Source: Henckelia pumila (taxonomy: Eukaryota > Streptophyta > Magnoliopsida > Lamiales > Gesneriaceae). From it: a stretch of DNA of 64,000 bases. The notes under the pieces are model-generated. The model was not told the origin of the DNA. It saw only the letters and a program-made list of their open reading frames with translations, and ran no database searches. The stretch lies in assembly GCF_033568475.1 (NCBI RefSeq), contig NC_133121.1:132464375-132528374 (forward strand), given 5' to 3'. Below are positions 12,018-63,743 of this stretch, in pieces. Positions within the stretch are counted from its first letter, which is position 1, and each line of letters opens with the position of its first letter. Both the position numbers and the translations under genes were made by a program.

Positions 12018-12059
12018 TGTCATCCTCACCATCTCCGCCATGGCAGCACCTTTCATAGC
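12018..12059 (+). promoter_or_regulatory. Short upstream ORF overlapping the SURF1 start
   Basis: An ATG at 12018 opens a 13-codon frame that stops with TAG at 12057-12059, in a different frame from SURF1 and overlapping its start codon at 12040. The context of the upstream ATG (C at -3) is weak, while the SURF1 ATG sits in a strong GCCATGGC context, so leaky scanning would reach it. Whether the upstream ATG is in the mature leader depends on the unmapped transcription start. Confidence 0.45.
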
Positions 12060-15000
12060 AAGGAATCTCCGCCGGCGAGTGGGTCCCGCAGTCAATCTCA
12101 AGTGGGCACCACAATTATCCCTGTTTTCCACTTCCGCGCCAGCCATCTCTGTACCTGATGTAGAACAAGGTTGAATCATGTTATTCCACCAAAGATTCGA
12201 TATTTTTCCATTTTTTGCGTCTGGGGCTGATGGGTTTTTCCAGGAGTGGTTGATATCGTGAGAAAATTGGTTCTTTTTTTATAATGGGATGGTAAATGAT
12301 CTCCTATTCTGCAATGGTGTTTATTGATTTATGGTTTTGCAGAGAAAAAGGGGAGGTCAACATGGTCAAAGCTACTTCTTTTTGTACCAGGTGCCATTAC
12401 TTTTGGCCTTGGCACTTGGCAGATCTTCAGGAGACAAGAAAAGGTTAGCTTTTGTATTATATTTATTTCTGGATTGTGTTATCTTACCTGCGGATGTTTG
12501 TTCCATAGTAGTGTTGGTTTGTTTTCAGTTAAATGAGTATCTTTTCTACTGTTTTAAAATATTTGGTCAATTTGTAAGATATTTGGGAGTAGTAGCTGAT
12601 TGTGATTATGCTTTTAGTTGATGCACAAAATTGTGAGAATAATGAACTACTTTTGCTGCTCATTGCTTAAGATCACTTTTTCACGTAGTTATTTGATCAT
12701 AAGCCGTGCAATCTAACCATACAGTGTGATGATTTTGATTAATGCAACAAATTTCTTTGCATTTGGATTGGTGAGAAAAAATGAAAAAAATCACTATGTA
12801 ACTTCCAATGGATCTGGGCCATGGTTGAAATTCATCCCTCCCACTCCCTCTTGGTTTGCATGTACAGATAAAAATGCTAGAGTTTCGGCAAAGTAGACTT
12901 GGAATTGTACCACTTAAAGGCAACCAAATTTTGTCTTCCATTGGCAACCCTGATTCTTTGGAGTTCAGGAGAATACAGTGTAGAGGAGTTTTTGATGACA
13001 AGAAGTCAATATATGTTGGCCCACGTTCAAGGAGCATTTCTGGAGTCACTGAAAATGGATACTACATTATAACTCCCCTTATTCCAGTGCTTGGTGATCC
13101 TGAAAGGTAAAATTTTGGAGAGAATATTCAGATAAGCAAGCCAATAAATATTATTTGATGTCATCCACCTTCCGGTTTTGCTATTTAATTGTGTTGAAGT
13201 AATATAAGTTTTGAAAAATGATTTGCATTGTGATGCAGTATTTGTTCTGCTTCTGCAAACCATTTTCTGTTTGCTGGACAAATTTTTTAGCGAGCATGGA
13301 AAACATCTAGGTAGTGTTTGGATGTATTTGCATAAGGCTTTCTCATTTTCCTACTGACATGGTAATTCTATTTAATTCAACCAGTCATCATTACTAAAAA
13401 ATCCTTTATTGTATATTATGTTTTTACTTTTAACTCAATATTTCATATATTAGACTCTAAAATACCCCGTAAACCAATAAATTAGCTTAATATACGAAAT
13501 GTGACATCACCAAAACAATAAGTTTTTTCATGATTTGACATCTGCAATTTAAAAAAATATCATTTAGAAGTTAAAATCAAGCATAGATTCCAAAACGCAT
13601 TTTCTCGTAATGTTTTCTGAAAACATTAAAAAACAGTTCCATACATTTGCCATCTGGGTGATCAGGGGCACTATTGTTTTACTTCACAAGTGATTTGTGG
13701 CTGTTGCTAAAGATTTCCTTATTGTTCTTATGAATATGATAGCGGCAATCCTTGATTTCTACTATATTCATAATAAATTTTTCTTGGTTGCTTGATGTAT
13801 CCAATATGCATTGTCAATTATGTTCATGGTTTCTGAGAATACAGATAAGTTTATTCAAACTATCCTTGAATTTCTTGCAGTCTGCAATCACCTGTGTTAG
13901 TCAATAGAGGGTGGGTGCCGCGTAGTTGGAGAGACAAGGCATTAGATGTCTCAGAGGATGATAGACTGTCAAGTAGTTCATCCATCCCAACTCAAGAGAT
14001 CACAAAAAATTCTTGGTGGCAGTTTTGGTCTAACAAACCAAAAAAACTCAAGGTTGTAACTTTTGTTTCCTTGTGTTTTGGCAAGCGTTAATGGACTTAA
14101 CTATGAAATAAAATTACAACGTGTTAAAGCTGACAGGAGCATGATGCATCTGTCGTCTCAGTAGAAGTCCTTGGTGTTATACGTGGTAGTGAGAAGCCAA
14201 GCATATTTGTGCCACCAAATGATCCTGGTACCTCTCAGTGGTTTTTTGTTGATGTTCCAGCAATTGCTCAAGCTTGTGGGCTTTCTGAGAAAACACTTTA
14301 TATGGAAGCTATCAATGACAATATCAAAGCAAGTAGCCCATACCCTGTTCCGAAGGATGCCAATGCACTTATTCGTAGTTCGGTTATGCCACAAGATCAT
14401 CTTAATTATACATTAACATGGTATGTATCATTCTGTTGCCCTTTTGTAGTCATCCACTCAAATTTGCATCCTTTTGTACTTACTTGATACCCCTTCTATC
14501 AAATGAGCTTGATTTTCTTGGTATTTTCCTCAATCACTTACTAGATTTTCCAATATATGAAAACCTTTAATCTTCCCATGATTTCTTGGTGCCAATTTGC
14601 AATATTCATATTTTAGTAGTATTATGCTCAATGTTGGAGAACTTTTTTTCTGAATGCATTTCATATTTATTGAAATTACTTATTTTTGAAGTTAATAGGC
14701 TTCCTGCTTCTATCATAATTTAGAGCCATGACAATCTTCAGCTTCATCATATAGGGATGTAGCTTCCATTCCTCTACCCAACCCTTGAGCTATCGAATCA
14801 GTTAAGAATTTGAGTCAGAATAGGAGGCTAGGGTTAATGGGATATCTGGATAAACTTCTAAAAGGCGTCTGTCATCACCACAGTTGTTAAAGGCTCGGTC
14901 CTCGTGCCTTGGCACGACTCTTTATGAAGCACACTCCTTGCCCACGAAGCATGTGTCTTAAAGCCTCAAGCTTGCTTTAACCGAGCCTTGTGTCCAAAAA

Positions 15001-15470
15001 TCAATTTAAGGTCGAATATTGTCTTATTGCGCCTTATTTCAATAAGGCTCACACCTTGTTATTTACCTTGAGTGAGGTTATTGGCCAGAGTTATCCAGTT
15101 TTATCCTACACGGATATTATTTAAGTCATCCAAAGATTGCCTCGAAAAGACTTCCTTGCTACTATTTTGCGGTAACAGGATTACACGTTCGGGTGGGTGG
15201 TGTTTTTTTCCTTCTATGTAAGCTGTTACATGAATGAGTCTGATTTTTAGGAAATGTGCTGAGACTTCTTTAAAGTTTGAATTTTTGCGATGGGCTTAAC
15301 GTTGATTTCTTTTTCAGTTATAATCTCCATTTTAGTCTCTTCACTTGTGATAATCTACAACAATGGTTTTTTCTGATATAAAAAATGTTATCCGGTGCAG
15401 GTACTCACTTTCAGCTGCAGTAACATTCATGGCTATCAAGACACTCAAACCGAGAAAGAATAGGAGATAG
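12040..15470 (+). CDS. SURF1: SURF1 cytochrome c oxidase assembly factor, mitochondrial
   Basis: Six coding exons: 12040-12169, 12343-12443, 12868-13106, 13881-14052, 14137-14420 and 15401-15470; 331 residues. SURF1 is an inner-membrane protein that helps insert haem a into subunit 1 of cytochrome c oxidase. The N-terminus (MAAPFIARNLRRRVGPAV) is basic and lacks acidic residues, like a mitochondrial presequence. The first membrane segment follows WSKLLLFVPGAITFGLGTWQ, the family core includes YVGPRSRSISGVTENGYY and VLVNRGWVPRSW, and the second membrane segment is near the C-terminus (TLTWYSLSAAVTFMAIKTL). The ATG at 12040 has an optimal context; the frame open upstream begins with GTG only. 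It is divergent from REF6. Intron 3 (13107-13880) holds a worn repeat starting TGTTTGGATGTATTTG. Confidence 0.95.
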
Positions 15471-16518: not shown

Positions 16519-17216
16519 TCATTGTCCTAAACAAACGCTGCACATATTGCACCACCGATCCACCGCCGAGAATCTGCACATCCCCGACGGCGCCGCCGGC
16601 GAGGACTCCTCCACGACCTCCGCCGGAGGTAGGACCCTCCCCTCAGCGAACAAAGCCCGCCCATTCCGCGGCTGTCCCAGAACAATCCCTTCTTCCAGCT
16701 CCACCGCCACACTGCCGTCTCCGAACCTCCTCTCCACTTCCAGATACTCCCCCAAAGACGCCCTCCTGGCGGCGTCGCCCTCTTCCCCACACAACATCCA
16801 CCACCTCCGCCTCTGCCGGGCCGCAACCCCACCTCCCCTGACTTTCTCCGGTCTCCTGCTCCTCCGGCCCACTGCCGCCGCGGAGATACTGGAATTCTCC
16901 CGCTGGGACGCGGCCCTGAAGGTGATGGCCTGGAGGGTGACGCCCATGAGAGTGCCCAGTGTGGTACTTCCATCGTGGAAGAATGATCCAGTCGACTGTA
17001 AAAGAAAAAGAAATTCAAGAAATGATTTGCTGGAAAGATTAAAAGGGTGAGCCATTTTTGTACCTCGGTGTCGAGATCGGAAGAAGATAGCGAAGAATCC
17101 GACGGGGAAGACGGCGGCGGCAGCATATCGTTTGCCGGATCTAACATCAAATGGTTGTTTGTCGGTAGAAATGGAGAAGGAAGCAGAGCAGCTACTATGG
17201 TATATTTTTTTGACAT
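16519..17216 (-). CDS. Small GC-rich protein of the plant At3g17950-like family, function unknown
   Basis: Two exons, 17216-17064 and 16995-16519, joined in phase 0 give 209 residues. The junction makes SSSDLDTESTGSFFHDGS, a signature I recall from the Arabidopsis At3g17950 family, annotated only as a transmembrane protein of unknown function. It is followed by TLGTLMGVTLQAITFR, a basic Arg-rich stretch, and the tail RWCNMCSVCLGQ. No catalytic motif is visible. An internal ATG at 17147 (MLDPANDM) is an alternative start giving 186 residues. Exon 2 is far richer in G+C than its surroundings, which creates long false frames on both strands. Its position beside SURF1 and mutarotase matches At3g17910-At3g17950, which supports the assignment. 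Confidence 0.75.
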
Positions 17217-19055
17217 GTAATGTAATGGCTACCAACTGAAATCCAATCTTGGAATAAATTAAATTTCATTTTTTAAAAAAAATAAACAAGATATAAAATA
17301 TATATTTACTACTTATCGTCTCATTTCATGAGTCAAGTAGTGACTGTCTTTTTATTATATGTTACTTATTTATCATTTGTATGTAACACGAAACCTCTAA
17401 TTTTATCATTTATCGTCTCATTTTACACATTTTACAAATTGAGCGATGATTGTGTGAAAATATGTATCATTTTTTGAAAAGTAACTATTTTTTCCTCGAA
17501 ATAGATTATTTGCTCTCTATTTGTTTTGTGCACATCTTTTAGATTGAAATTTATAATTAATTTATATAATAGAATGATATAAATAGGAGAAGGCTCCACA
17601 CACCTAAAGAGGAGATGAAACTTTCCACCTAAGTAAGGTGAGCAATAATTCTAGTAAAATGTTACATGGAAAACAAATGGACCACTGGATGTACACAAGT
17701 GAGACTTGATATTCCCAACAAGTTTTAGAGTTGGTTGGAAAATTAACAGTGATTCGATGTAAGAAGTAAATGTTTTCAAGGGGGAAAAAGGTAAAAGTAA
17801 TTTAATGCGATCTCACGAATTTAACTTGTGAGACGGTTTCATATCAGTTTTTGTGAAAATTATATCATTAGATGTTTTATAAAATGATAATACGACTCTA
17901 TATTTGTGAAACATATCGATTTGATTTATATTTATAATAAAAATAATAATACTTTTAATTATTTAGATCAAATCGAAGATTCATCCCACCAAATTTTAGC
18001 GTAATAACTATCATTGAGTTTTAGTGTATGATTATATACTCATAAAAATCAATAAGCAAGAAGTCGGTTGGACCTTCTTCATTGCGACATACTTGATTCC
18101 TTTTTCTACGTTTAGAGGATTTTATCCATAATATATTTTATATACAAATTATTGTGATATGAATTTTTTAATTGGATCACGCGTGATATTATATTATTTT
18201 TTAAAATATATAATTATTTATTATTAATATTGATGGATTTGGCCCATGGATCTAACAAGAGATCAACTCCTTTTATATGAAGATAAAAATTTAAAATAAG
18301 CATACAGTCCCAACAACACACGATAGTTGATAAAAGAAAAGCAATTAAAATAAAATTGTTTGTGAGATTTGGCCTAGGGATTTGAAATTTAATTTAAATG
18401 GCCTCATGAAACAAAGATTTAAAATGCAAGTTCTAACGAAATAATTTTAAAAGTAAACCTAAAAAAAAGTTAAATACAAATAAATTCATTTATTCTTTAA
18501 TTTAAAATATAGTGCATCTGACAATCAAGAACATCACATTTTAAATTAATGCTTTTCAAATTATGCCTTTCTATGATTTTTTTTTTACTTGGAATTGTGA
18601 ATTTTATACAATATCTTTTAAATTTTAATTATTGTTTATTTATTTTTATTTTAATTTTTTTTACAAAATACTATGTTGATCACTCACGGAATCCACACTA
18701 GCCAAAAATCCACATAAATCTCGTTTCCCCCTAAAATTATAGATAAACCACATGTATATATCCTAGTGTCTTGTTAGACCAAGATCATTAATATATTGCA
18801 AATCTTTACCATTATTCAAACTTTGTTTTTGTAACTGGTTCAATGTTACGTCAAATTTATAGATTTTATTTTATGATAAATTTCATTCAATATTATCTAT
18901 AATTTTATATTATACATTGTTTGATTCCTGGATGAGATGATAAATAATGCATAATATAAGATAAATCAATATAGTTGGATAAGATAAATATGCATGAGTC
19001 ATGACACTAATTTTTTTGTTGAATTTGAGTTAAATATTGAACAAAACAAAAATGA
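17217..19055. other. Intergenic with a partial GAGACGG-family repeat
   Basis: AT-rich DNA without a gene. A truncated copy of the GAGACGGTCTCA family lies at about 17817-17965 (TGTGAGACGGTTTCATATCAG followed by rearranged interior). Nothing else is recognisable. Confidence 0.5.
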
Positions 19056-20096: not shown

Positions 20097-22855
20097 ATGG
20101 CAGAGGCCAAGATCTACGAACTTAACAATGGCTCTATGCAAGTCCATGTCTCCAATTTTGGCTGCACGATCACCTCCTTGTTGGTACCTGATAAAGAAGG
20201 TGATTTCACCTTCTAAATCATGAAGAAATAGTATAATTCCGGAAAAGATTGAGTGTGAATATCTGTTTACTGATGTTTTGTATTTGCATTTGAAGGGAAA
20301 TTGGCTGATGTTGTTCTGGGATTTGACACTCTGGAGCCATATTTGGTCAGTGCCTTTTTTATATCGATTTATTTATTTTTTTTAAAAAAAAAAACCCAAG
20401 TGATTTTAGTCTCGATCTTGTTGTTTTCATGTGAAAAAATTGAATCTTGGCGTGTTGTCGAGGGTAAATAAAGGTACCCATCGTCGTTCTTGCTTTGCTG
20501 GGACACTTAATTTCTGACATGGGATATGATTTTTTCGTGGGGCAGGAATCTTTATGGGTTGATTAATTTACTTTTCTGAATATGGTGTCTCCCCCTTTTA
20601 TGTCTATGTACAGAAAGGGGCTTCCCCTTACTTTGGGTGCATCGTGGGTCGGGTGGCAAACAGGATCAAAGCTGGGAAGTTTACTCTAAACGGTGCTGAG
20701 TACTCGTTACCTATTAACAATCCTCCGAACAGCCTCCATGGTACTCCTGTCTAAGTGTGTTTCAAAATCTTTTTGTGTTCCTGTGATTCTATTTCAAATG
20801 CATGTCTGTCATTAAATGTGGTCACGTAGAAGCGAGTGATTGCGATGGTGGCCCGAATCATTGTGCTACATTTTAGGACACCCTTGTACTTGTAAACCGA
20901 TAGCCGGAAAATATATATCCGGAAATGATTTCCACCATGTACACATTCATGTTAATTGGACATTGTAGGACAAAAACTAGCCGAGACCAACTCGACTTAA
21001 TTGTGGGGTTGTGAAATTCAATGTAGTAGCTGCTGATACTTGGTTGTAAAATTATAAGATTTGTTTTGTTGAATATTTTTTTAAGAACAGATGTGACTCT
21101 ATTTGTTATTGTTGTTGTTGCATACTTGCATATCTAGATTATACGTCATTATATATGTTAGTGCATCTGGCATCATTTCATTGTCTAGCCTTGAACATGC
21201 GCCTTAAATAACGATGATATGTCATGTGAAGTTGAGGTTTCTTGGGTGTGGGTTTTTGTTGATGTTGATTGTTGATGGATGTTTTTTGTTATTTTGTATT
21301 GACCTGCCTCACCTTGATGTTATCTTTAGAAAAGTAAAAATCTTTAAAGATTCCAGAATCAAATTCTCTGGATATAAAATATAATTATCAGTATTTTAAA
21401 GGAAGATAAATATTGTTATATTTCTTCACGAGTGAATGATGTGTATCTGAAGAAGAATTTTATATAACTAGAGTGTTGTTTTGCTTCATTATTTATATAG
21501 TTGGGCCATATTTGTCTCACATATGGTAAATTGATTCTTACTTATAAAAATAAAAGGAAAAATTGTTATTCTTTACAAGTAGTCTTCCTTTCAGTCTTCA
21601 GATCTCATCTGTTTACTTGTATGATATCAGATTGATTGGAGATGTGGGAAGAGAGAAAACTTCTGTAAAAGTTCACCATGATGCATGACCTTTCAGCTTC
21701 TTAATTAAGATTACACATTAAGCAATAATGCACAAATGTTAATTACGAATCATTTTGTTCACAGTTTCACTTCATGCATGACCAGAAACTACGTCTTTTA
21801 TGTTTGCTTGCTGGCCTTTATTTTGGTGCTAATGGATATGGCATAGTATGGCTGTATGATAGAGATTATATGATGATAATAAATCTAAGAGGAAGGAAGT
21901 GCATTGTATTTTCATAGCAGATGAGGCTGCATCTATCATTCTTTGGAATGACAACTAATCTGTATCTAGAAGGCCATGTGATTCCTTAAAGATTCCAATT
22001 TTCTAACACCGTCTTTGTATAATCTTTTGAACCTTATCTCTCGAAGGTGGGCTCAAGGGATACGACAAGGTTATTTGGGATGTCGTGGAGCATAAGCAGG
22101 GTGATAATCCATCAATTACCTTCAAATACAAGAGTTGGGATGGAGAGGAAGGTAACCCCTGTATTTTGTTTTGGCTCACAGAACTAATGTGTATACTGAT
22201 ACTACCGTTTCTTTTGTTTATTTTTATTGCAGGCTATCCAGGTGATGTTTCTCTCACTGCGACTTACACACTTACTTCCAAGACTACACTGAGACTCGAC
22301 ATGGAAGCCGTGCCGGAAAACAAGCCAACACCGATCAATTTGGCTCAGCACACCTATTGGAATCTGGCAGGCCACAATTCTGGTAACATTCTTGATCACA
22401 CCATACAAATATATGCGAATCATCTTACTCCGGTGGATCAACACACTATTCCGACCGGGGAGATCATTCCCGTCAAAGGCACTCCATTTGACTTTACAAC
22501 TGAAAATAAGATCGGTAGCCGTATCCACGATGTTGGGATGGGATACGACCATAACTATGTCCTTGACTGTGGAGAAGAAAAATTGGGATTGAAGCATGCG
22601 GCAAAACTGAAGGATCCCATTAGCTCGAGGACTTTAAATTTGTGGACTAGTGCTCCTGGTATGCAATTTTACACTGCAAATTATGTTAATGGACTCACCG
22701 GCAAAGGTGGTGCAGTGTATAATAAACATGCTGCTGCGTGTCTCGAAACTCAAGGGTTTCCAAATGCCATCAACCAACAAAACTTCCCCTCAGTGGTTGT
22801 TCAGCCACGCGAGAAATACCAGCACAGCATGTTGTTCGAGTTCTCCACCGAGTAA
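20097..22855 (+). CDS. GALM: Galactose mutarotase (aldose 1-epimerase)
   Basis: Five exons: 20097-20199, 20296-20345, 20614-20740, 22047-22151 and 22233-22855; 335 residues, the usual plant length. The enzyme interconverts alpha and beta anomers of aldoses such as galactose. Recognisable parts are VGRVANRIKAGKF (about 62-74), the substrate and catalytic histidines His93 (NSLHGG) and His168 (QHTYWNLAGH), Asp234 (YDHNYVL) and the general base Glu300 (CLETQGFPNA). All expected active-site residues are present, so the protein looks functional. There is no clear signal peptide, suggesting a cytosolic enzyme. Intron 3 (20741-22046) is long and holds nothing I recognise. The gene is the expected neighbour of SURF1 and the At3g17950-like gene in Arabidopsis (At3g17940). 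Confidence 0.95.
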
Positions 22856-24173: not shown

Positions 24174-27100
24174 TTATGCACCATCAGCTGTAATAAGAGC
24201 TGTTACTTTACCCACAGCAACAGTTTTCCCTGTCAGAAAAGAATTGTAAGGAAACTTAACAAGGTTGAGCTACTCGAGTAGCAGCATCAGAGAATAATAA
24301 TTTACACAAAGCCAAATGTTTTTTCAACCTTCAGTGCGAAGAGTGAACCGTCCAAGTTGAGGAAAATCAGAGAATTTCTCAATACATATCAAGTTATTCA
24401 CCTGAGGGCAAAAATGTAGCAACACAAATTATGTCAATCCCCTAAATACAAAATTCAGTAGAGAACTATAATACCAAGATTAGGAACAATATTAAACATA
24501 TCAGATAGCACATAAATCATATGTCAATCACCTTTATTAAGCCTGCACGTCTCATATAATTCGATAGATCGGTTCAACTCAGATTAAAAGAATTTTAGAA
24601 AGAAACTAATACATTTTTAAAATAAACTAACACCACGTAAAAGTATTATCACAAGAAAAAATGTGAAACTATGTTAACCTGAATGTGGCATACAACAACT
24701 GCACCATTCTTCACGAAAAGAGGTTTTCTTTTCATAGGTTTTTTAGTTTTGGGATCAACCTGTTGCGTCAAGTCAACAATCTCACACTCCTCCACAACTG
24801 CATGGATGTGCAAAACAGCCTTGTATCCAGCAGTAAAAATTGCCTAACATGAGAAACATACCTCTTTAGATACGATGACGTTATATCCGAGTAAATAGAT
24901 GGATAGAAAAGCAAGTAAATAAATGAACAGCAAATATGCACATGAAAAGACAGACAAGTATGCACATGAATACGCAGACAAGTATGCAAATGAAAAGATT
25001 AAGAGAACGAAAACATAGATAAATAGATCAAAGAGAAAAAACCATACATTGTCGAGCAACTCCAGAATCTGCAACTGGGCAACAAATTCAGAAACAGCAG
25101 CCATTTGCTTCACTGTAAACACAATCAAATAATTTTGGTTAAAAACACATAAAGCAACAAAACTCACAAGCTTGAGAATTAAGCAACCAAATGCAGTACA
25201 TGGAGCCAACATTTCCACCCATTGAACTCATTCAGACATACATATATATAATATATTTTATAAGAGTGAGACTAATAATTATCAACATTAATAGAATCAC
25301 TATAATTGAACTCAGACAGGAACACGGTCTATGTTCCGAGAGTCTCTCTCCTTTAACTAGTAAATAATGACCATGACAATTTCTAAAGGAGCTACCTCAT
25401 CGATATTTAGAAACTTTGTACAAGATTTTCTGTACAAAGCTCTTGAAATGCATGTTATATTTGCAAATTGTAAACCAAAAAAGGGAAAGAAGAGATCAAA
25501 GCACAACACAAAGAGTAAAGACTCTGGATGATCAACAAATGAGAACTTCAATTCATACATTCAAATCCGATGGTCTTCATCCCAATAGAGCAATGCAACA
25601 GATCCCCCCAATTTGTGTAGTACAAATCACAACACAGGTATAATACGCAAAAGGATACTTCATTGAGTAATAGATGAAATTCGGGAGAATATACATACTT
25701 TACCTACCAGTGCCACATAAGACAAAACCAGAAAGGATATCCTCTTCCTCAATCCCAGAAACCCTGACTCGCAAATTTTCACCAGGTCCTGCACGACCAA
25801 CTTTATCTTCATCACAGAAGATGGCTAGAACCTTCACCTGTACCTGAAAATTATCAAAGCACAAGATTTAACCCCAAATCGATTCATGCATTCATATAAT
25901 AAAAATTTCGTGCAAGGACAAAAGGTAAGGGGTAAAAACACCTTATTTGGCATGATCAACAAACTATCGCCTTCACGAATACTCCCGGATTCTACTTTGC
26001 CCATAACAACAGTTCCCATGTCTTTGAATTTGTCAATAATGGGCATTCTATCACACAACAAGCAGTCAAGCACATAAAATTAGGCTGAAAAGTGTGTATG
26101 GCGTGATTACTTTCCCAGGTAAATCGAGAACAAAAGTAGCAACTTATAATTTTCATCTAACGAGATAACCAAAGAAGACAGAGGAATAATAGAAATGATT
26201 ATATTCTACCTGAATGGACCTTTTGGATCAAGTGCAGGGACTTCAACACCATCAAGAGCTTCAAAAAGATATGGACCCGTCCACCATGGGCAGACATTTC
26301 TGTCGACTCTTGTCTTCATATTTGTACCCATAAGACCAGATATGGGAAGAAATTGTACATCTGAAACCAAAGACAAAAATATAAAAGAACTTATGATCAA
26401 TACATTAATAAGGATACCAATAGATAATATTTATGATGAATTCATTATTTAGTAGAGCATCTGCTCACATTGAACATCATTTTAAAATTCTTTCCTGAGA
26501 AAAGGCTTCTCGTTATATGAAGTCTTTAAATCAACATGGCAATTCAACATTGATTTCAGGCTATAACACATGGATACGAACAAGGACATGTACAAACACA
26601 GACATGGACAACACACAAGATGGCGACATGGATTTTTAAAAAGTCGAGTACATGAGAGCAAATTGTGGGCACATATATATTCGTATTATGCATGCATGCA
26701 TATTGCACATAAAGGTTTGTAAATTACTGAATATGAAAATAAAACCAATTATATTATATTATATAAAGTAAAAGTATCACAATTAAAAAAGATAAGTGTT
26801 GTGAATATATTTTAAGACACCAAATCCATCTCATTTTAAAATTAATATTATAGTCCAGTAAATAATAAATTCACTAATAAATTGAAAGACAATGATTTAT
26901 TCAGTTTTAAAATTGAAAAAAATTTCAAGCATAAGAAAAGATTCACTAAAAATGAATGTGTTTTGACTTTTTGGCCTAAAATTTTAAGAAATATTATAAT
27001 TTATGGGAAAGTCCCTTGGCATGTCCCACACACATTTGTGCCACGTCAAAGATGTTTCTATTTTTCAGGTGTATCCAACCTGGCATGGGCCAATAATTTT

Positions 27101-35962: not shown

Positions 35963-36013
35963 CTAGGTTTCTGTTTTTGTTTGTTTGTTGGAGATTAAGT
36001 AAAGTTCATGAAG

Positions 36014-48433: not shown

Positions 48434-51106
48434 TGTAACACCCGGTATTTTAAATACGTAAATCCGCATGCATAATTAGGATATTTAATTATTTAAATTT
48501 TAGATTTATGGGTTAAATAATTATCTGAATTATTTGTGCATGATTTAAATTTATTTTTAAGCATTTAACCCATAATTAGTGATTTTTATGATTTTTAGTA
48601 TTTTAATTATTTTATCGCGTAGACGGGACCGTGGACGGACGAGATGACAACTTTCTAGCCAATAAATTTCATGAGCCTTTTTAGAGCCCAAAAATATTAT
48701 TTTGAGTTTTATTATCTCAAAATTTTTAGTATTTAATTTTATATAATTTTAGGAATCCATTTTATTCAAAATTAGCCAAAATATTGACTTTTTAGTATTT
48801 TTAAAATTCCTTTAATTTATAATTTCGAGATTTTTTTTATGATTAACTTAAATTATCAGATTTTAGTTTTTATTTAGAGTCTTAAAATTTTAGGTTTTAT
48901 ACTTAAAACTTTTAATTATGCTAAAACCTATTTTAATTAAAAATAAAAAAAACTTTAACCTAATCTACCCCAAACCAACCGATCCTTCACCCTCTTAGCC
49001 GCCTCCCTCCCTTCCATTCATCTTCTTCATCGAGCCATCAGCCAAGGAGGTTCCATAGCCGAGTTTTCTTCGAAACTGCGAGTTGTTCGTCGTCCCGTCG
49101 TCCCGGAATCGTCGCACACGCCGTTTTCGCTTCAAACCACGGTGCAAGGCATGTTTCCTTTCGATTTTTCTTGCCATGTCAGTTATGATAGTGTGTGTAG
49201 TGTTGTGCATCGAAAACTTTTAGTTTTTTTCAGAAAATGTTTGAGTTTGATGAAGGCGTACGGTTTTGGTTGCATTAGTAATTCATGCTCACGTTTTTCT
49301 TCTTCCATGGTAGACTAGCTGCTGGTCGAGGGTCTAGTGGGTGTGTATGTGTGACCTGGACTCGAATGGCTCGAGTGGTTCGAGCCAAACGAGTCCAGGA
49401 GGCCTGCTGTTCAGATCGAGTTCCCTAGAGGTGCAGTTTAGGGTTGGAGGGAAGAGGGGTCGGCTGGGGCATGCAGGCCGGGAACCAGCCGACCCATGGC
49501 CAGGTTAGGACCGGCAGGACTTTGGGAAGGTCCTGCCGGCGGCGGTCCGGCCAGTGGTGGCCGAACTGGTGCGGCAGCAGCCCTTGAAGGGCTGCTGCAC
49601 GCAGCCGAGAGGGTTTGAGAGAGGGGGGGGATCGGGTTGGGCTGGGTTCTGGGCCTGGGTTGGGTCTGGGTGTCCTGGGTCGGGTCAGTAGGTTAGTGGG
49701 TCGGGTTAAGTTGGTCCGGGTCCGGGTTTGGTGGGCCGGGCTCGAGTCTTTTTAATTTTAAAATATTTTAGGAATTAATTGGTTTTTGGGCCAATTAATT
49801 AGAAATAAAATTATTTGGACTCCCAAATAATTTTATTTGGGCTTTTAAAATTTTAATTAAGTTAGTCCATTAATTTTATGGGCTTTTGAGCCCATGAAAG
49901 TTATTGGACCAGTCTTTGGGCTTTTGGGCCCATTGGGCCAGTTTAACTTGTTATTGGGCTTAGAATGTTTTAAATGAGCTTTAATTATTTAATTGGGCTT
50001 AGAATAATTTTTATTGGGCTTAAGTATGTTATTGGGCCAGTCTCAGTGTTAATGGGCCAGATTTAAGTAAATGGGCTTGAGTGTTAGGGCCAGCAGTCCA
50101 GGACCATCCATGAGAAAATTGCATGTGTCCTGATTATATATTTAATTATTTTTATGCATTAAGTTATTTTAATATTTATATGTTAGTAAGAAATTAAATT
50201 AAATATATATGAAGGACACACATTTTATTTAAGTACATGCATTCATGAAATAATTTTATGCATAATTAAATGTTTAAGGTTGAGTAATAATAAAGTATTT
50301 TATGTTGGAAGTTGAAGTAGTGTGACAATTTAAGGGGGATTCGTCCCCATATGTGAACTATTGAAGGGCAGTTTACTGCCAATTTAAGAGGTGATTCGTC
50401 ACCGCCACGTACGTTGGTTTCCACGCTGATCAGTATTTAATGTATGATTTAAGATTACACTACGGATACAACCATGCGATGTTAGAAAATTAATTGCTCA
50501 ATAATGTTTATGTATTATGTTATTTAAGTTAAGTTATGTTAGGTTATGAAATTTTCAAGCATGCTCATTCATGTATATGTATGTATTAGTATTTAATTAT
50601 TTTAAATTATTTTAAACCCTTGTTATGTTAGCATGTTGGGTCTCTAGGCTCACTACACTGGTATGGTGCAGGTGAGTTCGTTGAGGATGAGGTTGTACCC
50701 ACCGGAGGTGAGGATGTATGAGCGGGCATGCAGTGACCCCGTGACCGTGATAGATGGCTGAGTCAAATGCATGTTTTTGATTATGTCAGCACGTTTCACA
50801 TTTTATATTATTTTTTTTCAGTGGTTGTGAGTTTTGAATATTATGGAATATTGTCAGTGCATGCAAATTTTACATCATTTTATTATGCAGTATTTTTTTA
50901 AATTAAAGGTTTGACTCAGATATTTATTTTCTTTTAAAGAATGCATTTTTATTTAAGTATTTAATTGTTTATTTATTTATTTATTTTTAAATCTTTTATT
51001 CTGTGCATATATGTATGGGCATAAATGTACATATTTTATTTAGTAAGTATAAAAAAAAAAATTTCGCATATTTATTTATTAATTATAGAGTTAGGGTCGT
51101 TTCACA
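48434..51106 (+). mobile_element. Large solo LTR, Ty3/gypsy type, nested in the copia fossil
   Basis: A 2.67-kb insertion beginning TGTAACACCCGGTATTTTAA, a common start of plant gypsy LTRs, and ending GTCGTTTCACA. The flanks share ATTT (48431-48434 and 51107-51110), one base being ambiguous with the LTR end. The interior has a G-rich GGGTTGGGCTGGG-type tract (about 49625-49745) and AT-rich parts, and no coding domain. It is inserted 187 bp from the other solo LTR and is likewise younger than the copia element. Confidence 0.7.
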
Positions 51107-52316
51107 ATTTACCTGAATTATCGAACAAGGACAAACCTTTATGAGAGGAGGCAGACATGGCATGAGGCTGGGAAGCGAGGAACTGTTGAAACTGCTCCAA
51201 CATATGTGGATCCAAGGACGGGGCAGCAACTGCATTGTTGGCCTGAGGTAGGCGATACGACCATGGAGCAGTCTGTGGCGGGCGTGGTGGTTGAGGTGGT
51301 CGTTGTTGCTGTTGTTGTTTTTCTTTACCCAACAATCTCGGACGCTGAGCCTTCCAGTGACCCTTTTCTTTGCAGAAAGCACATTCATCCGAAGAAACCT
51401 TAGGAGCTGGTCTATTTTGGTTGCTAGGCGGAGACTGTCATGGAGCAGCAAAGACAGATGGAGTTGTAGGTGTGACAAACCCCTTATCTGCTTTAGACTT
51501 AAGCCGAATCTCCTCTGCTAACAGTTCATTAACCACAGAATCAACAGACGGAAGAGGAGAACGATGTAGAATTGTCCCACGCAATCCCTTGAAATCATTT
51601 CAAAGAGCCATCAAAAACTGTACCAGACGTTGTTCTTCTCTAAGAGCCAAATATGGTTCAAATATTCGCAGCTCTGCAGACTCAGTGAGAGCCAACTGAT
51701 CCCAGAGATTAGTCGTGTCAGAATAAAACTCCTGAACATTCATATCATTCTGCTGAAGTGCGCGAATATCGGTCTCCAACTGATACTGCTTGGCGAAATT
51801 AGACTGTGTGCACAATCTAGCCAGATGATCCCAGACCTCTTTAGCCGTCTCATACTTAGCCAACTGAACGCCAATGGAGTGGGTAACAGAATTGTTAATC
51901 CATGTAATAATTTTTGAATTATCAGCCTCCCAACTGTCGACCAAGTCCGCATAGTTGGTTGTCGTCTCGTCTGTAGGTTTAATACGTACACCTGTAACAT
52001 AGTTCCACAGAGATTTTCCACGCAAGAAATTCTTCATAACGTAGCTCCAATACGTATAGTTTTTACCATCCAATTGAACACTAATCGACTGAAGTGAATC
52101 ATCCTTACGACTAACCATGATGAAAGAGGCACAAATACAAATAAAAACCCCAAAACCGAAATCAACGGATTCGAAATTCCCAAAATTAACCGAATCCAGA
52201 CAAACCAACGCGAGCGAGAACAAATCAAAGGGAAAACGGAAATACCAAAATCAACCGCAAAAGCTGTGGATTGGATTATAACTTCTTCAATCAAACAAGG
52301 AGAATCCATAAACCTA

Positions 52317-52329
52317 GGCTTTGATACCA
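52317..52329 (-). other. tRNA primer-binding site of the copia fossil
   Basis: On the - strand TGGTATCAAAGCC directly follows the 5' LTR. It is complementary to the 3' end of initiator methionine tRNA with one difference from the usual TGGTATCAGAGC, the standard primer of plant copia elements. Confidence 0.85.
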
Positions 52330-52489
52330 TGATGACATAGAGAAAAAAAGGAGGCTAGGAATTTCTTATTGACTTGCATAATGAATCAGAATACAATAAA
52401 GAGTATTTATAACTAGGGATTACAATGAAAAAAAATAGATTAAAATACCCTTAAACACTAATAAAGATAATATTATAATACAACTAATA
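52330..52489 (-). repeat. 5' LTR of the copia fossil
   Basis: About 160 bp, TATTAGTTGTATT to TATGTCATCA on the - strand, matching the 3' LTR at 43694-43853 at all but about five positions. Very short LTRs of this kind occur in several copia lineages such as Ale. Confidence 0.88.
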
Positions 52490-53066
52490 ATGCTGACATA
52501 TGAAGACGAAATATTGCTGATGTATCTGATGTCACGGTCAGTATTGTCGTGAAAAAGAACCAAAATGAAGAAAACAAATGCAAATTGATGGATTAAATCT
52601 ATGAATTGACCGATAACATGTAACATAAGACGAAAAATAGGGGAAAAAATGATTTCCCAATAAATAAATAATAATAATAATATAGCCTTTGATTTGTGAC
52701 TGCCACTGCCCCATCTCTTAGCCTTAGTCAACTTCATGAATTGAAACCAAAAAACACCCCTACTCCCCCTTTGTTTCCCTTTCTCTTTGTGGGTTTCTTG
52801 TTCAATCTCTTTCTCTCAAATCCACATATTTATTTTTGGCCTACTTACCTACTTCTTCGCTTCTCCTTATGGAACCCTACTTTATGATCTTATAACTAAA
52901 AATTCCACCATAAATTTCCCACTACTTTTCTTGAGTTTTCATCATACATATATTAGCTAATTATTACTAATTTGCCTCGCTTGATCATGGAACCCTAGTG
53001 GCACTGAAAACCAAAGAATAAATAATTATACATTAATATTCTTGGTTTCCCATAACCAAACTTGAG
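52490..53066. promoter_or_regulatory. WOX1 upstream region
   Basis: The copia fossil ends only 577 bp before the WOX1 start codon, so this is all the unique promoter-proximal DNA. It contains a CT-rich leader-like part (about 52740-52880). No TATA box can be assigned with confidence. Confidence 0.5.
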
Positions 53067-54478
53067 ATGTGGATGATGGGATATAACGATGGGGGAGACT
53101 TCACCACCCTTCAAGAATCATTCGGCGGCCGGAAACTCCGAACCCTTATGCCGAGACCCGCCGCCGCTCCTTCCACCACCACCACCGCCACCGCTAACTC
53201 TCCATGCTTAAACCTCCTACACGGCGCTGACTTTCTTTCCTTGAATCATCATCTCGGCAAGTCACCAATATTTCTCATTCTTTCTATATATCATTTGTTA
53301 ATTTTGTAGGGTCAAATATTATTTTACTAAGTACTAATAAGTAGCCATTTTTTTGGGTGCATTTCTTGTTTGAGCAGCAGCGATTTCTTCGTCGGAGCAA
53401 AATAAGAGAGATTTAAGCAGCACACTGCAACAACAAGTAGTGGTGAGTTCAAGATGGAATCCAACTCCGGAGCAACTCGGGACCTTGGAAGAACTATACA
53501 GAAGAGGCACTCGAACCCCTTCCGCCGAGCAAATCCAACACATCACCGCGCAGCTCCGCCGATACGGCAAGATCGAGGGGAAGAACGTCTTCTATTGGTT
53601 TCAGAATCACAAGGCTAGAGAGAGGCAGAAACGCCGCCGCGGCCAGCTCGAATCTCCCGCCGCTAAACAACCCCAGTACATGACCAACATGGAAGAAAAT
53701 GCCCAGAAGATCAATAAAGAATACCAAGGTATATATATATATATATATATGTAGCTAGCTCACATGCAGTCAGTGGTCGGAGACGAGTTGTTGAAATATA
53801 TATAAACTTTCTTCATCAGATGAATAATCAAGAGGGAATGATTTTAAATTTATTGAGTTAATAATATATTATGAGATGTGATTTTTTTTTTAGTTTTTAG
53901 ATTGGGAGTTCAGTTTGTTGGATCATTGGTTTCCATTTCCAAGAGTTTCTTGACTTGTAGCATAAAGTTGAAATATTTTTGGGCAGGTGAAGAGACCAAA
54001 AACTGGGCATCTCCCACAAAATCTAGTACAAATACAGAGGTCTGTTTTCTGCTGCTTTTTTTACCCTTTGTCTTACTTCATGTTCCCTTTTTTTGCAACT
54101 CAGATTTCTAAAAAAGCCATCCCACAAGTAACTATAATATTCCCACTAATCAGATCATAATAATTAAGCACATCATTGCATGGTTAATATTACATGTATA
54201 ACTTTTGGAGTATATATATATATATACATTGGGTTTCAGGTAATATAATGATTAATATATATATGTTCTAAAATTTGAAAAGAAAACAATGTTTTTTCTT
54301 TTCTTTTCTTTATTCATTGATTTGGGATTAAAAGAAGCGTCAAAGGCTGCATGCATACCTTCCTTTCTGTCGGGGGGCTGCTGTGCTATTGTTATGAAAC
54401 ATTGCTAGGGTTTTTGGGTGTCGTGCTCATTCATTTCATTCGAATTTTGAATTGCCCAACATTTATATACCTACATAA

Positions 54479-54523
<45 letters not shown>

Positions 54524-55650
54524 CGTACACTTCGAAAGGTAGATTCAACGGTCTAATTTTTTATGCATTTCATATGCAAAATAATTAGAGCCCTCGATGC
54601 ATTACCCGTATGCTAGCATCGAAATCTTCGTATATGAGTGTGTACGGAAAGAAAGACTTTCACCCCTATGCATGAAAACTTGGGGTTGTATACTATTTAA
54701 GTTAAAGGCATATGCAATAAAGATTACATTTTTTACTTCTTCAATCCCACATTTTCATAAATGTGCATATATAAAGCCTAAACAGATTCTTTTAGTAGGC
54801 ATTGGGTCATTAATTATTATAAATTAATCACATGTCAAATTTGTTATGTAGCATATCTGAAATTCAGAAGGGCTCAATTATTTCGAGTTTAATTTTTGTA
54901 AGTTTTTTGGTTCAATCATTTCTATGAAATTCATATATATATCTTTTAATTCCATTTGTATATGTTTCTTAAAAATAAACATTTGAATTCTTATAAGTCT
55001 AACTTTTTTCATAAAAAAAAAATTTGTTCGTACTATCGGTCAATTCACAGTTTTAGTCTACGAACTTGCATTTTCTTCAATAATTTTTCTTTTCCACGTG
55101 GAATTGAGCGTATCATCATTTTTTGATGTCATATCATCATTGCTTAAAGCCTTGAATAAACAGAAAAATGCATCAAAATTATAATTTTCTATCATCTCTT
55201 TTGAACAATATATTAAATTATATATTGACTTGATGCATTAATCAATAGATAAATATTAATGTTTTGAACAATATATATTAATGGATATATAAATTAATAA
55301 ATCAGAAAAATTCAAGACAAGGGTCAGCAAAGGTGACAGAGACAGAATGTAAAACAGATGGATGGTTACAGTTCGATAGTGATGACACAGAATCACAGCA
55401 GAGGAGGACCCTTCTCCAGAGGAATGCCACGTGGCATGTTATGCATTTGTCTTCTTCATCTCCCACGCCACCTCATAATGCCGCCGCCGTCGCAACGGCC
55501 GCCGCCGGGGAGGCACGGACCCTTGAGTTGTTCCCTCTTGGAGGTGATAAGAAGGATAAAGAAGATCATGAGTTATCTGGTGCAGCCAATATTGTTACTA
55601 GTAATGCTACGCCTTTCCCATTTTTTGAATTTCTTCCTTTAAAGAATTGA
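53067..55650 (+). CDS. WOX1: WUSCHEL-related homeobox 1 transcription factor
   Basis: Four exons: 53067-53256, 53378-53728, 53987-54039 and 55333-55650; 303 residues. WOX1 (STENOFOLIA, MAEWEST) is a nuclear regulator of leaf-blade and petal outgrowth at the margin. The N-terminus [12 protein letters not shown] and [11 protein letters not shown] match WOX1. The homeodomain is at about 88-152 ([10 protein letters not shown] to [18 protein letters not shown]). The WUS box TLELFPL is at 261-267 and the WOX1-type end FFEFLPLKN closes the protein. The first intron uses a GC donor (G|GCAAGT), needed to keep frame. The last acceptor (CAAAG|GTGACA) has a poor pyrimidine tract and is the least certain junction. 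WOX3 lacks this N-terminus. PEAMT is the next gene, as in Arabidopsis (At3g18010, At3g18000). Confidence 0.95.
54483..54518. repeat. (AT)n microsatellite in WOX1 intron 3
   Basis: About eighteen AT units in the long last intron. Confidence 0.9.
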
Positions 55651-56781: not shown

Positions 56782-56862
<81 letters not shown>

Positions 56863-59007: not shown

Positions 59008-62000
59008 TCACTTTTTCTTGGCAACGAAGAGCCCCCACTTCTGCTCCCCAGAAGAGCTCCTCACAAGCTTAGCCTTCCAACCTCCAACTATTTCATTGTA
59101 GTCTTCCTGCAGACGAGAAACGAGCAGACGAAACACTAAGTGAATGGGCAAAATCTAGGAATAAATTAAGAGGTACGATAAGTGTAAAGGAATAAAAACG
59201 TACTTCCGAGAAGTCATTCGTAAATGTTTCCTTGTCCTTCTCCACAACATTCAATTCCTTCTCAAGAACTTTGATAAACTAGAACCAAGAGAGTACCAAG
59301 TTTAACTATGTCTATGAGATTGATTAAGGTTTGAGCCAAAAATATTGATATGTAATGAAATGAGGTATGAAGCATTTCCTGGTATGAATCACTATAGTTT
59401 GCTCACAACAACAATAAATTTGAAAAATAGAAAGGGTATGATGTATTTTCGGAAAGAAAAAAAGAAGGTACAGATAAAATTTGAAAAAAGGAGAAATCAT
59501 GAGAAATAAAGCGCGAGGAGATCAATGAGCACCTGATCAGTTCGGTCCTCAGCAACAACCTCATCAAACCCAGATTCACGAAGCATCTTTAATTAAAAGA
59601 AAAAAAATACAGCAATGCCTTCTGTGAGATCATTATATTATAACTTGTGAAGAAAATGAATATCGCTGCCTTTAGACACACCTGGCCATAAGCTTTAATA
59701 TCATGTAGATCATATCCCCTTTGCTCAATATACTGAGAAAATTCAGCAGATGGAGATCCAGCACTTCGGCAATAATCACTGATGAGGACTTTGCCTCCTG
59801 GTTTCAGCCACTTGTAGAATGATCGAAATAATGCAGGTTTGTCCTAAACAAAACCACATTTATACAGCAGATTAGAAATAACAGAGCTTGGAACTCCATA
59901 AGTAAAATTCAATATTTACAAAAATCATAGAATACAATCACTGCAAATTTTCAATCAAATTGGTCTTAGAATCTCTTATTTTAATCATGTTTCCAGTTAG
60001 GTGAATCAATGAGAAGTGAGGCAGTAAGCAGTGCTTTTAACAGAAGCAGTCACAGATCTTTTATTTGACAAAATTTGTCACAAGTTTAGATTTATTTCAA
60101 TGAAGTCTATCATATTGAGAAGAATGAAATGGCTTAGAAAAATTCAGGGAAAGAATGTTACTTGAATGTGAAGAATTGTGTCACGGCTATAGATCACATC
60201 AAAGGAGCCAACAGGATATTGTTTCGTGGTGCAGTCAGCAACCTCGAATTCAACAGCACATTTGAGACCAATGGCACGCTCAAGAGCAAAAGAAACCATA
60301 TTGACGGAGAGGTCAATGCCAACAACATGAACGTCATACTTATCAGCCATGTAAAAATCACCTCCTCCAATGCCACAACCCACGTCTAAGACTTTTTGAC
60401 CAGGCTGGAGATCCAATTTAGATACAAATTCTTTTGTGGTATCTGCTTATAAACAGAAGATCAGTTAATGAAACTATAACATAGCATTAATTTCTAATCT
60501 TCCAAATATTCATTCAAGAAATTTTTGGCAATATTATAAATGGTGTTTTGTAAAGATTGGTGATGAAAGAACTAACAAAGCAGATGAGATGCACAGAAAG
60601 TCACACACTCTAGATCCTCAATGCTAGAAACATTATCTAAGTTTAATTTTGTGCACAAAATCCAGCTGGTTAGGAAATTTTGTTAGAGGAAACATACCAA
60701 TCCCTCCAGTGCTCACGAAACCATGCCCAAAGACACGCTCGTAGCGCAATATGCCACTGCATTTATATTGGACAGTATCCAAGAACTTCTGGAATCCCCT
60801 GTCAGTGTCTGAGCTAATCTTCTGCCAAATCCAGCAAATCTGCCAAATGTAAATATACATTAAACATCAATTTCTATTCTTACTATTTTCATTTCTATAA
60901 ATAAGGAGCAATCTTTGTGGACTGGTTCTGAGAGTGGCAAAAGATGGAATTCAAATATGCATCAATTTCCGGATTTAACCCTGTGTCGTACCACTAATGG
61001 ACTCAGAGACAATAACAAACCTGATTTTGATTTTTTTTGTTTTTGACATAAGCTCCAATGCACTTGCAACCAATAAGAGCAAGTTCGAACAAGTTCCCAG
61101 AATCATCATACAAATGACTTTCTTTAAACACCTGCAAGACCAGTACATTTAGGAATCAATATCATGCTTGAATAAACATCCAATAAATCAGCATAGGTTG
61201 AGCGCAATTTCCAAATAATACTCAGCATGCAGTCATAAATAAGCTCCTTTGAATAATTATTTTCCAGTCAACTGTTTAGCAAATCAGACACAAAGGCATG
61301 GAAGCAATCATCAACTGGGGTTAGGATGAAACTTATCAACCTTTTTCTACAAGTCAATTTGGGAGAAATACTCCGTTAGTTTCTTTATGAAATTTTGTGA
61401 CCAAGATGGCAGCAAAAGTACTGCAAGCTGAAGTCATGATAGGAGGGCGAAGCTATAAGAGTACATGATGATATATCAAGAGTTGGTTATGAACAAACAA
61501 ATGTAGATAAAACTGAAACCTTGGTATAAAATCTTGGTTCGCGGTAATGAGTAGGGTTGTTCTTTCTCTTGTGGTCTCCAGACTGATGGAAACATGATTC
61601 TCTGAAAAATATATAGCCACCAACTTTTAACCATTTGATCATTCTCTCAGCAAGACTCTCAACCTGCAAAAGAATAGAACAGAGCAAATTTAAAACAAAA
61701 TTAAAAATAAAATAAAAAAATGAAGCCACAAATTTGACGATAAAGATTCCAAAAATAAACAAAATTCAGAAAGGATTTTGTGAAGGTCCCCAAACGTGGA
61801 TTAAAAATATTACCTCCCTGTCTGAGAGATACATAAGCAGCCAGTTCGAAAATATTAAGTCTAAAGACTGTTCTGAGAAGTTCAGTTCTGGGGAAGTCAC
61901 GTCAGCACATATAAACTTGACATTCTTATGATGTCCGTTTATGCTTTCATTCTATAAACAAAGAATTAAAAACTTACTCCCAATATAACTAAGAGAAAAT

Positions 62001-63554
62001 TTTGAAACTAGAACCACAAAAGCTAAGGTTTTGCACAAGGTTACGTACCTTTTTTATGACACTTTCAATGAAGTCAAGTGCAATAAGTTGGCTAGCCTTG
62101 TCAGCTAACTCACTAGTGAAACGGCCAATACCAGCACCCAATTCCAGAACTGACTTTCCCTCGTACGGAGGAAGAAGGGAAAGTACCTGATAAGAATTAC
62201 GAGCAAGATGAGTTTGGAATCACTTCCTAGTCCAATGGAGAAGTATGACAACTCAATTTACTAGCACTCAGATGAGTTGGTAATTAGCAAGATTAAACAT
62301 TATCTTTTGAAAGGAAACATCTGTAGATTATATGTGAATTGATATGGTAAAACATAAAACCGTGATGGTGTAAAGGTTAGCTATAATGCTACAAGATAAA
62401 TTAACTTTACACAACAACTCTCAGGTTTGCATTTCAGAAGCATGCTGATAAAGTGAGCACGGGACCTGATTAACACATAAAGATAATACTTGATAATTGC
62501 ACAGCCTAAGGGCAAATATAAGTCATATAATAAGAATCACTACCAGATCTAAGAGGCAAGAACTAAATTGGACGTGTAAATTGCACAGCCTACATTCAGA
62601 TTTCATGGCAAAGTTCCGTTTGGTGCCATAAAATATTGCTGAAAGAGGCTCTGAGGCTGAATGTAACCTGTTAGCATTGTTACTTTATATTTATTGGTCT
62701 TGGAGAAACCAAATGGCTGTAAGACCTCCGTAAGCTAATTTTTAGAACCAGTAAGCTTTTACACATTTGAATTTCAAATGTTATTATTCTTGCAGTTCAA
62801 AAAATTTCGAAGCGAAAGCTGACTGATTATGACAAGAACAACGCATATGAATACTCCAATAAAATAAGACCACTCTCACATATTGCACCTCTGTTTCATA
62901 ACTACAGACGCAAAATATCATTATTACCTTACATCAACTCCAAACTGCATAAGGTTTTTTAGAAGTTTAAATATTTATGCATGAACAATAAATTATATCC
63001 ACCCAATTTGGGTTCCAAATAATCCAACAAAAAGCCATTTAGCTGAAAATGGTAGCAACAACGATATCCTTAAGAAAAAGGAGGAAAAACAAATTAAAAG
63101 ATTGTAACTTTGAACTATCCTGCATCAGAACCGAAGAAACAAAAGCACAATTTATGCCCGGAAAGAGTTTGCTTAAAAGAATAAAATTTGCTGGGAGTCC
63201 ATTCCCCTAATACAAAAATAAAAAAACATTGTCATATCTAATCCACGGCACTTATCATATGCATTTTACAAAATGTGTCAAATGAGAGTTCAACACCCAA
63301 AAAAAAATTTACATCAAACCTCTGGTCTCTCTTCTTTGTCAAGGTCAGAGGCTTTGGAATCAAGCATCATAGCCTCCACAGTCAGATCAACAGAGTGCTC
63401 GATCCAATAACTCTTTTGCAGCTCACGCTCTTGCTCTGTAGTTTCAAATCGCAAAACAAGAAGGAATTTCTCTTAAAATCAAACAAACCCAATACATTAA
63501 ATCCCCTAAAACATCTAAAAATCTTGGATTTCGTAAACATTTACCTGTAGCCAT
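59008..63554 (-). CDS. PEAMT: Phosphoethanolamine N-methyltransferase (choline synthesis)
   Basis: Twelve exons: 63554-63545, 63435-63320, 62186-62049, 61951-61814, 61663-61520, 61131-61021, 60839-60698, 60442-60162, 59843-59682, 59586-59533, 59278-59204 and 59106-59008; 489 residues. The cytosolic enzyme methylates phosphoethanolamine three times with S-adenosylmethionine to phosphocholine, the committed route to choline and phosphatidylcholine. Two methyltransferase domains stand in tandem, as in all plant enzymes. The N-terminal one has [11 protein letters not shown] (about 55-65) and does the first methylation. The C-terminal one has [15 protein letters not shown] (about 284-298) and SRDTILHIQ. 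The end [20 protein letters not shown] is family-typical. The first coding exon has only ten bases (ATG GCT ACA G). A 25-residue upstream ORF lies in the leader. Nothing looks broken. Confidence 0.96.
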
Positions 63555-63665
63555 GATGATGACGATATGCAGCAGCACTGATTCCAAGTGACGAAGACTA
63601 GGTATTTAGTAATCGGGCTTTTCTTCTTTTCCAGATGGTATCTGAAACAAAACGGTAAATGGAGG

Positions 63666-63743
63666 CTAAAACCCCTCAATGGCAACGCGTGATCTCGAAA
63701 ATGACCTTGATCTTCGGTTATGGGATCTCCCTTTTTGATGCAT
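63666..63743 (-). CDS. Conserved-type 25-residue upstream ORF of PEAMT
   Basis: In the PEAMT leader an ATG at 63743 opens MHQKGRSHNRRSRSFSRS followed by RVAIEGF and stops at TAG (63666-63668), 111 bases before the main start codon. Arabidopsis NMT1/XPL1 has an upstream ORF of 25 codons (CPuORF30) known to lower translation when phosphocholine is high. The position, the length and the Arg/Ser-rich sequence fit that peptide as I recall it. It would be the feedback switch for the gene below it. Confidence 0.88.
   Translation of the reverse strand: MHQKGRSHNRRSRSFSRSRVAIEGF

Follow-up and report, generated by a model that had tools for sequence, protein, structure and literature searches.

Does a microRNA gene that keeps the same two neighbours in two distant plants tell us that selection holds the gene order? 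The question is raised by a stretch of 64,000 nucleotides of the Henckelia pumila genome (C2:132464375-132528374, within an assembly of 884.66 Mb in 133 sequences), hereafter the window, in which a MIR159 gene lies between the translation genes eRF3 and RACK1. A sequence-only reading of the window had described an unfractionated ancestral gene block and offered selection on the order or slow decay as its explanation. We find that an ancient gene neighbourhood was very probably doubled here, by duplication of the whole genome or of a large segment, and that the window is one of the two resulting copies; a related segment is present at C1:90.98-91.11 Mb of the same genome.

Results

The MIR159 precursor occupies 36006..36203 on the plus strand and scores 112.4 bits over the full RF00638 model (1-196), whose cut-off is 74. 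The fold energy is -96 kcal/mol with a z of -9.2, and 0 of 200 shuffles were as good. The mature miR159 (36171-36191, plus strand; core at 36172-36189) lies on the 3' arm of the foldback. By covariance model as well as by its long foldback the locus reads as a MIR159 gene, for which processing and GAMYB-type targeting are predicted. To its left is eRF3 (24195..31785, minus strand), with tblastn exons at 24195-29885 and a 5' end inferred from an N-terminal-like frame. Its best PDB matches are eRF3 chains, and the spliced GTPase part gives 2.5e-161 with an eRF3 chain, 9.7e-98 with eEF1A and 3.4e-97 with HBS1. RACK1 lies to the right (39535..41931, plus strand) with three matched exons (39535-40023, 40264-40692 and 41833-41931), of which the first two match a PDB RACK1 chain with 6.3e-177 over 296 of 296 query residues. 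The RF00638 match and the PDB matches of both neighbours thus bear out the placing of MIR159 between eRF3 and RACK1 in this plant.

Whole-genome sequence searches, in which the best candidates alone were scored, pointed to a second such locus. The DNA search with the precursor gave four matches: the window, C1:91040316 (81%) and two on C3 (71-72%). An exact 18-base miR159/miR319 core pattern run across the 885-Mb genome found 9 core sites, 2 of miR159 type and 7 of miR319 type, and the two exact miR159-core sites are the window MIR159 and the MIR159 of the C1 segment, with none other genome-wide. The C1 MIR159 retains the core together with a strong hairpin (z -8.7). RACK1 likewise has two genome loci above a 32-33% background, the window gene and C1:91054221, and both fall within ~14 kb of an exact miR159-core site, a proximity whose chance is ~2e-9 by a rough uniform-placement estimate. 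The two C3 copies (C3:41435105-41435246 and C3:147659190-147659357) were rejected as intact MIR159, being without the 18-base core and with a mature region that appears altered; they look nearer to the C1 type and are probably decayed duplicates.

To compare the two segments 200 kb of C1 were examined, and C2 to 10 kb past each window edge plus 5 kb around a Raf gene. The genes on C1 were named partly by recognition of translated frames and partly by Pfam. In order, C1 carries frames for a kinase, L-Ala-D/L-Glu epimerase-like, mS35-like, CCT4-like (PF00118), WAT1-like, GT61-like and MATE-like genes, then a CDKD-like kinase (PF00069), MIR159, PEX3 (PF04882), RACK1, an unnamed gene, PPR, a kinase of MPK8/9 type, two HON4-like genes, a kinase of Raf type and thaumatin. 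MIR159 (+), RACK1 (+), MPK (-) and Raf (+) have the same order and orientation on C1 as on C2. The C2 MPK gene falls within the 10 kb that adjoin the window on the right, and its strand agrees with that of its C1 counterpart. The Raf kinase was rejected as a C1-only gene since a C2 copy was found at 132556391-132558074, 28 kb right of the window, on the plus strand like the C1 gene (C1:91096670-91098296) and 71 and 67% on two exons, which adds support to the duplication.

Divergence of the pairs was measured as synonymous divergence (dS) by Nei-Gojobori, a simple estimate on partial exons. The C1-C2 dS is 0.85 for RACK1 (335 codons), 0.65 (491 codons) or 0.66 (534 codons) for MPK and 0.82 for Raf (379 codons). 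By these sequence distances the pairs stem from an old duplication and are not haplotypes. MPK has further loci at C1:162.39 and C3:175.67 Mb, and beside the 0.66 of the C1-C2 pair the five other pairs with them are all saturated. That the likeness of C1 and C2 is an assembly duplicate or the other haplotype is almost certainly wrong: the mere existence of two copies speaks for it and nothing more, and the 81% precursor, the dS values, the differing gene content and the host sequences, 183 Mb long for C1 and 201 Mb for C2, all speak against it.

Around the shared genes the content of the two segments differs. On C1, PEX3 (peroxin-3) sits between MIR159 and RACK1, which are 13.7 kb apart, and the CDKD-like kinase occupies the place expected for eRF3. 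When 11 stretches of C1, 10 from named genes and one from the unnamed gene, were compared with the window and the 10 kb to its right, ten gave no match there, including Raf with its C2 copy further right, and CDKD matched just the MPK kinase exons. Eight C1 genes searched in the 10 kb left of the window gave no match either; those 10 kb read, by recognition, as retroelement-like frames. Genome-wide, PEX3, the CDKD tail, the mS35 exon and the unnamed stretch match C1 alone, CCT4 is found at 89% on C1 and 44-58% elsewhere, and the HON4 stretch reaches 88% on C1 against 42-58% in other places. For the L-Ala-D/L-Glu epimerase exon the C1 match is at 93%, and five other places, none near the window (C1:20482267, C2:55662657, C2:56185177, C3:162152051 and C4:167277933), match over ~50 residues at 76-80%; these dispersed stretches may be pieces of the gene spread by a mobile element.

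In the reverse comparison, with 1141 window open reading frames (>=30 residues) searched against the 200 kb of C1, MIR159, RACK1, repeats and retroelements alone exceeded 40 bits. When shorter frames from seven genes of the window were searched, hits for JmjC, SURF1 and PEAMT did not exceed 24-27 bits (E 0.004-0.01), and eRF3, WOX, aldose epimerase and the At3g17950-like gene had no match in the same 200 kb. An eRF3 protein query against C1 found nothing significant (best E 0.67). In the 200 kb searched, therefore, none of eRF3, SURF1, aldose epimerase, WOX and PEAMT could be detected in the C1 copy. Judged by presence and absence at this depth of search, both segments are fractionated, and reciprocally so. 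The window can therefore no longer be called unfractionated, as the C1 segment, with its shared order of MIR159, RACK1, MPK and Raf, carries neighbours absent from it. Separation of MIR159 from eRF3 and RACK1 in grape or Amborella was what the sequence-only reading had itself named as telling against its claim, and in spirit C1 presents such a separation.

A second eRF3 was found at C2:5596967-5602070, on the same sequence as the window eRF3 and 127 Mb from it. As a displaced C1 partner it was rejected, its dS of 0.17 over 344 codons comparing with 0.65-0.85 for the C1-C2 pairs, and by this measure it is a later, recent copy that was transposed. The copy (C2:5.597-5.602 Mb) adjoins an SF3b4-like gene, named by recognition.

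Two short non-coding blocks beside MIR159 are common to both copies. The upstream block (35220..35283, plus strand) lies 0.72-0.79 kb 5' of the window precursor and is identical to its C1 partner (C1:91039598-91039669) in 57 of 72 columns; over both loci the distance to the hairpins is 0.65-0.8 kb. The downstream block (36549..36584, plus strand) is identical at 33 of 36 positions. A 19-mer of the upstream block occurs exactly at the two MIR159 loci alone in the whole genome; with two mismatches it is found in eight more places, and a reversed control pattern gave four matches at <=2 mismatches. The upstream block is plausible as a local control element of MIR159. To judge from this shared element, both MIR159 genes seem to be accompanied by regulatory DNA of their own close by, in which case their function need not depend on neighbouring genes. 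A ~170-bp MITE-like repeat (miniature inverted-repeat transposable element) is found directly upstream of the C1 MIR159 (C1:91038848-91039408), and the same repeat has several copies, in both orientations, in the window (794-969, 19053-19226, 19422-19616, 19679-19854 and 32746-32906).

These blocks, together with the adjacency seen by locus code in Arabidopsis and by sequence in this plant, could be taken to mean that the eRF3-MIR159-RACK1 order is held by selection, for example through shared cis-regulatory DNA or co-expression of the translation genes with the microRNA. We consider this highly unlikely, as the C1 copy, predicted from its core and hairpin (z -8.7) to be a working one, does without eRF3 and has PEX3 and 13.7 kb between itself and RACK1, and as MIR159a of Arabidopsis (At1g73687) lies apart from the sole reported eRF3 (At1g18070). 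A further idea is that all intact miR159 output comes from one ancient locus, of which two copies were kept since the duplication because each has a private upstream element (35220-35283); what is conserved would then be the element rather than the flanking genes, and it might represent a MIR159 control element common to angiosperms that has so far gone unrecognised. We regard this as speculative and on balance doubtful.

From left to right the genes of the window are JmjN/JmjC (-), SURF1 (+), At3g17950-like (-), aldose 1-epimerase (+), eRF3 (-), MIR159 (+), RACK1 (+), copia (-), WOX-type (+) and PEAMT-type (-). The JmjN/JmjC gene with a C2H2-like tail (3525..10835, minus strand; PF02375 8.3e-15, PF02373 1.9e-23) is a left neighbour outside the range first described and one that we take to be REF6/ELF6-like; the C2H2 matches in its tail are weak (0.006-0.009, under their cut-offs). 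SURF1 (12040..14487, plus strand) matches PF02104 with 5.3e-21, best at ~13885-14427, its start at 12040 being that of the sequence-only reading, and its exon has a single genomic match, the window locus. The putative At3g17950-like gene (16519..17265, minus strand) consists of open frames for which a Pfam search (16.5-17.3 kb) gave no match. As a genome query it matches the window locus alone, and its presumed identity was not borne out. The aldose 1-epimerase, or mutarotase (20614..22855, plus strand), matches PF01263 with 3.5e-55 at 22232-22837 and 2.4e-12 at 20614-20754, and its relatives elsewhere in the genome reach 48-52% identity, with nothing closer besides the window gene itself.

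Right of RACK1 lies a copia retrotransposon of 8.8 kb (43694..52489, minus strand), recognised by its frames, a Pol_BBD match (PF22936, 2e-9) and 160-bp terminal repeats that differ at 5 positions; at 96.9% identity of these repeats its insertion is fairly young. The WOX1-like gene follows (53037..55650, plus strand), with a homeodomain at 53449-53628 (PF00046, 7.9e-16) and a WUS-box frame at 55282-55650 in which TLELFPL is visible. It is placed in the WUS-type homeodomain family, the WOX1 subclade label being putative. A WOX1-like homeodomain (92%) at C2:77962674 lies <1 Mb from three GT61-like matches (C2:78679038-78872511); these relatives of the C1 GT61 gene, at 58-62% (C2:78.7-78.9 Mb), and the WOX1-like match possibly mark a third, older related segment. 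Last is the PEAMT-like double methyltransferase (59589..63743, minus strand; PF13847 5.2e-21 in two stretches), with recognisable frames to ~62.2 kb and a right end taken from the sequence-only reading; one exon of it matches two genomic loci, the window and C4:154260234 at 86%. Of the eight loci that had been named in order, seven therefore hold by family, order and approximate position and the At3g17950-like identity does not, lacking a Pfam match, and with the copia element between RACK1 and the WOX gene they are not strictly consecutive.

Discussion

Does Arabidopsis favour the window or C1 as the older arrangement? The Arabidopsis order was derived from locus codes in papers, not from sequence search; locus numbers follow chromosome order. 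We take At1g18075 to be MIR159b, CCT4 to be At3g18190 and MATE to be At1g73700, and the assignment of codes to RACK1B and RACK1C is likewise presumed. The respective papers give CDKD;1 as At1g73690 and CDKD;3 as At1g18040 (PMC6852550), MPK8, MPK9 and MPK15 as At1g18150, At3g18040 and At1g73670 (PMC4511077), RAF4 and RAF5 as At1g18160 and At1g73660 (PMC8617523), eRF3 as At1g18070, the single Arabidopsis copy (PMC6143672), RACK1A as At1g18080 (PMC2577656) and MIR159a as At1g73687 (PMC3953016). They also give PEX3 as At3g18160 and At1g48635 (PMC9110829), SURF1-1 and SURF1-2 as At3g17910 and At1g48510 (PMC5877523), the methylation-pathway loci At3g18000 (PEAMT1), At1g48600 and At1g73600 (PMC5853852), WOX1 as At3g18010 (PMC6305195), a putative aldose 1-epimerase as At3g17940 (PMC6409359) and HON4 and HON5 as At3g18035 and At1g48620 (PMC8609783). 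A 7.2-kb deletion covers the microRNA At1g18075 with At1g18080 and At1g18100, in a passage that labels the latter two DNA repair exonuclease and unknown protein, at odds with RACK1A (PMC3998191).

Ordered by code, these genes fall into four Arabidopsis segments, which repeat the pattern of differing gene sets: CDKD;3, eRF3, MIR159b, RACK1A, MPK8 and RAF4 (At1g18040-18160); a PEAMT-type gene, RAF5, MPK15, MIR159a and CDKD;1 (At1g73600-73690); SURF1, aldose epimerase, PEAMT1, WOX1, HON4, MPK9, RACK1C and PEX3 (At3g17910-18160); and SURF1, a PEAMT-type gene, HON5, RACK1B and PEX3 (At1g48510-48635). The match of the window to Arabidopsis loci around MIR159b and At3g17910-18130 is supported by these codes, as is the claim that this plant has side by side genes which Arabidopsis keeps apart; in the window eRF3 and RACK1 have SURF1, aldose epimerase, WOX and PEAMT as additional neighbours. 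The codes of eRF3, MIR159b and RACK1A follow one another, which is the arrangement of the window, and on At1g18 and At1g73 the CDKD, MIR159, MPK and Raf codes are grouped as on C1. In the At3g17-18 segment, however, SURF1 and the epimerase are on the PEAMT/WOX1 side with MPK9 between WOX1 and RACK1C, whereas the window has them on the eRF3 side and WOX-PEAMT between RACK1 and MPK. By locus code the C1 order fits all four Arabidopsis segments where they overlap and the window fits less well, so that at least one rearrangement would separate the window from the Arabidopsis order.

The description of the window as the ancestral block finds no support: a second copy with other neighbours exists on C1, and the window order departs from the At3g17-18 segment. 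One could still hold that the window is intact and that C1 is a derived, rearranged copy which later gained PEX3, CDKD and the rest, and the agreement of eRF3-MIR159-RACK1 with At1g18070-18075-18080 would fit this. Such an explanation seems very improbable to us, as one CDKD code (At1g73690) adjoins MIR159a (At1g73687), the other (At1g18040) is close to MIR159b, and PEX3 codes are found near RACK1C and RACK1B, in each case as on C1, and as the SURF1-epimerase side of the window mismatches the At3g17-18 order.

We thus favour duplication followed by loss. A whole-genome or large segmental duplication, presumably the former, would have left the C1 and C2 copies, which by presence and absence at the depth searched have since lost different genes, with C2 keeping eRF3, SURF1, aldose epimerase, WOX1 and PEAMT and C1 keeping PEX3, CDKD, CCT4, mS35, the L-Ala-D/L-Glu epimerase-like gene and the HON4-like pair. 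The eRF3-MIR159-RACK1 triple, common to the window and At1g18, is probably ancestral, and the window copy would have lost PEX3 and CDKD; the last common ancestor of this plant and Arabidopsis would already have had the triple, which would persist by chance retention. Its order is probably dispensable because the C1 MIR159, with core and hairpin, does without eRF3 and has PEX3 in between, and because MIR159a of Arabidopsis is also apart from eRF3. Of the two explanations first offered, selection on the order is unsupported, and slow, uneven decay fits.

Some points weigh against this interpretation. The ties between the segments amount to four shared genes and two short non-coding blocks. Over 72 residues the MPK at C1:162.39 Mb and the C2 MPK resemble the C1 MPK equally, at 86% each, a tie that is resolved because dS separates the C1-C2 pair from the other MPK loci. 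Further C2 copies of C1 genes (MATE, WAT1 and PPR, for which no genome-wide search was made) may lie beyond the C2 stretch examined. The ancestral order, finally, is inferred from locus numbers, and from this genome and Arabidopsis codes alone.

The comparison suggests that MIR159a and MIR159b of Arabidopsis come from one ancestral neighbourhood of CDKD, eRF3, MIR159, PEX3, RACK1, MPK and Raf. One published account (PMC3118147), citing Maher and others (2006), finds how close MIR159a and MIR159b are to each other consistent with what had been inferred from segmental duplications carrying miRNAs. For the miR167 locus, a study of date palm and seven other plants describes collinear miRNA segments with varying flanking genes (PMC3738527). 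The likeness is that the miRNA is retained in collinear segments amid varying flanks; the differences are that it is another miRNA and that eRF3, RACK1 and WOX1 are absent from the examined parts of that paper. A title-level look at the literature found no title on eRF3-MIR159-RACK1 adjacency, which does not establish its absence from print.

The present case is one more duplicated plant miRNA locus with varying flanking genes. Its value is that it supplies, inside a single genome, a control for the attractive claim that gene order is conserved, as the duplicate shows which adjacencies are dispensable, and the upstream block provides a short candidate control element for MIR159.

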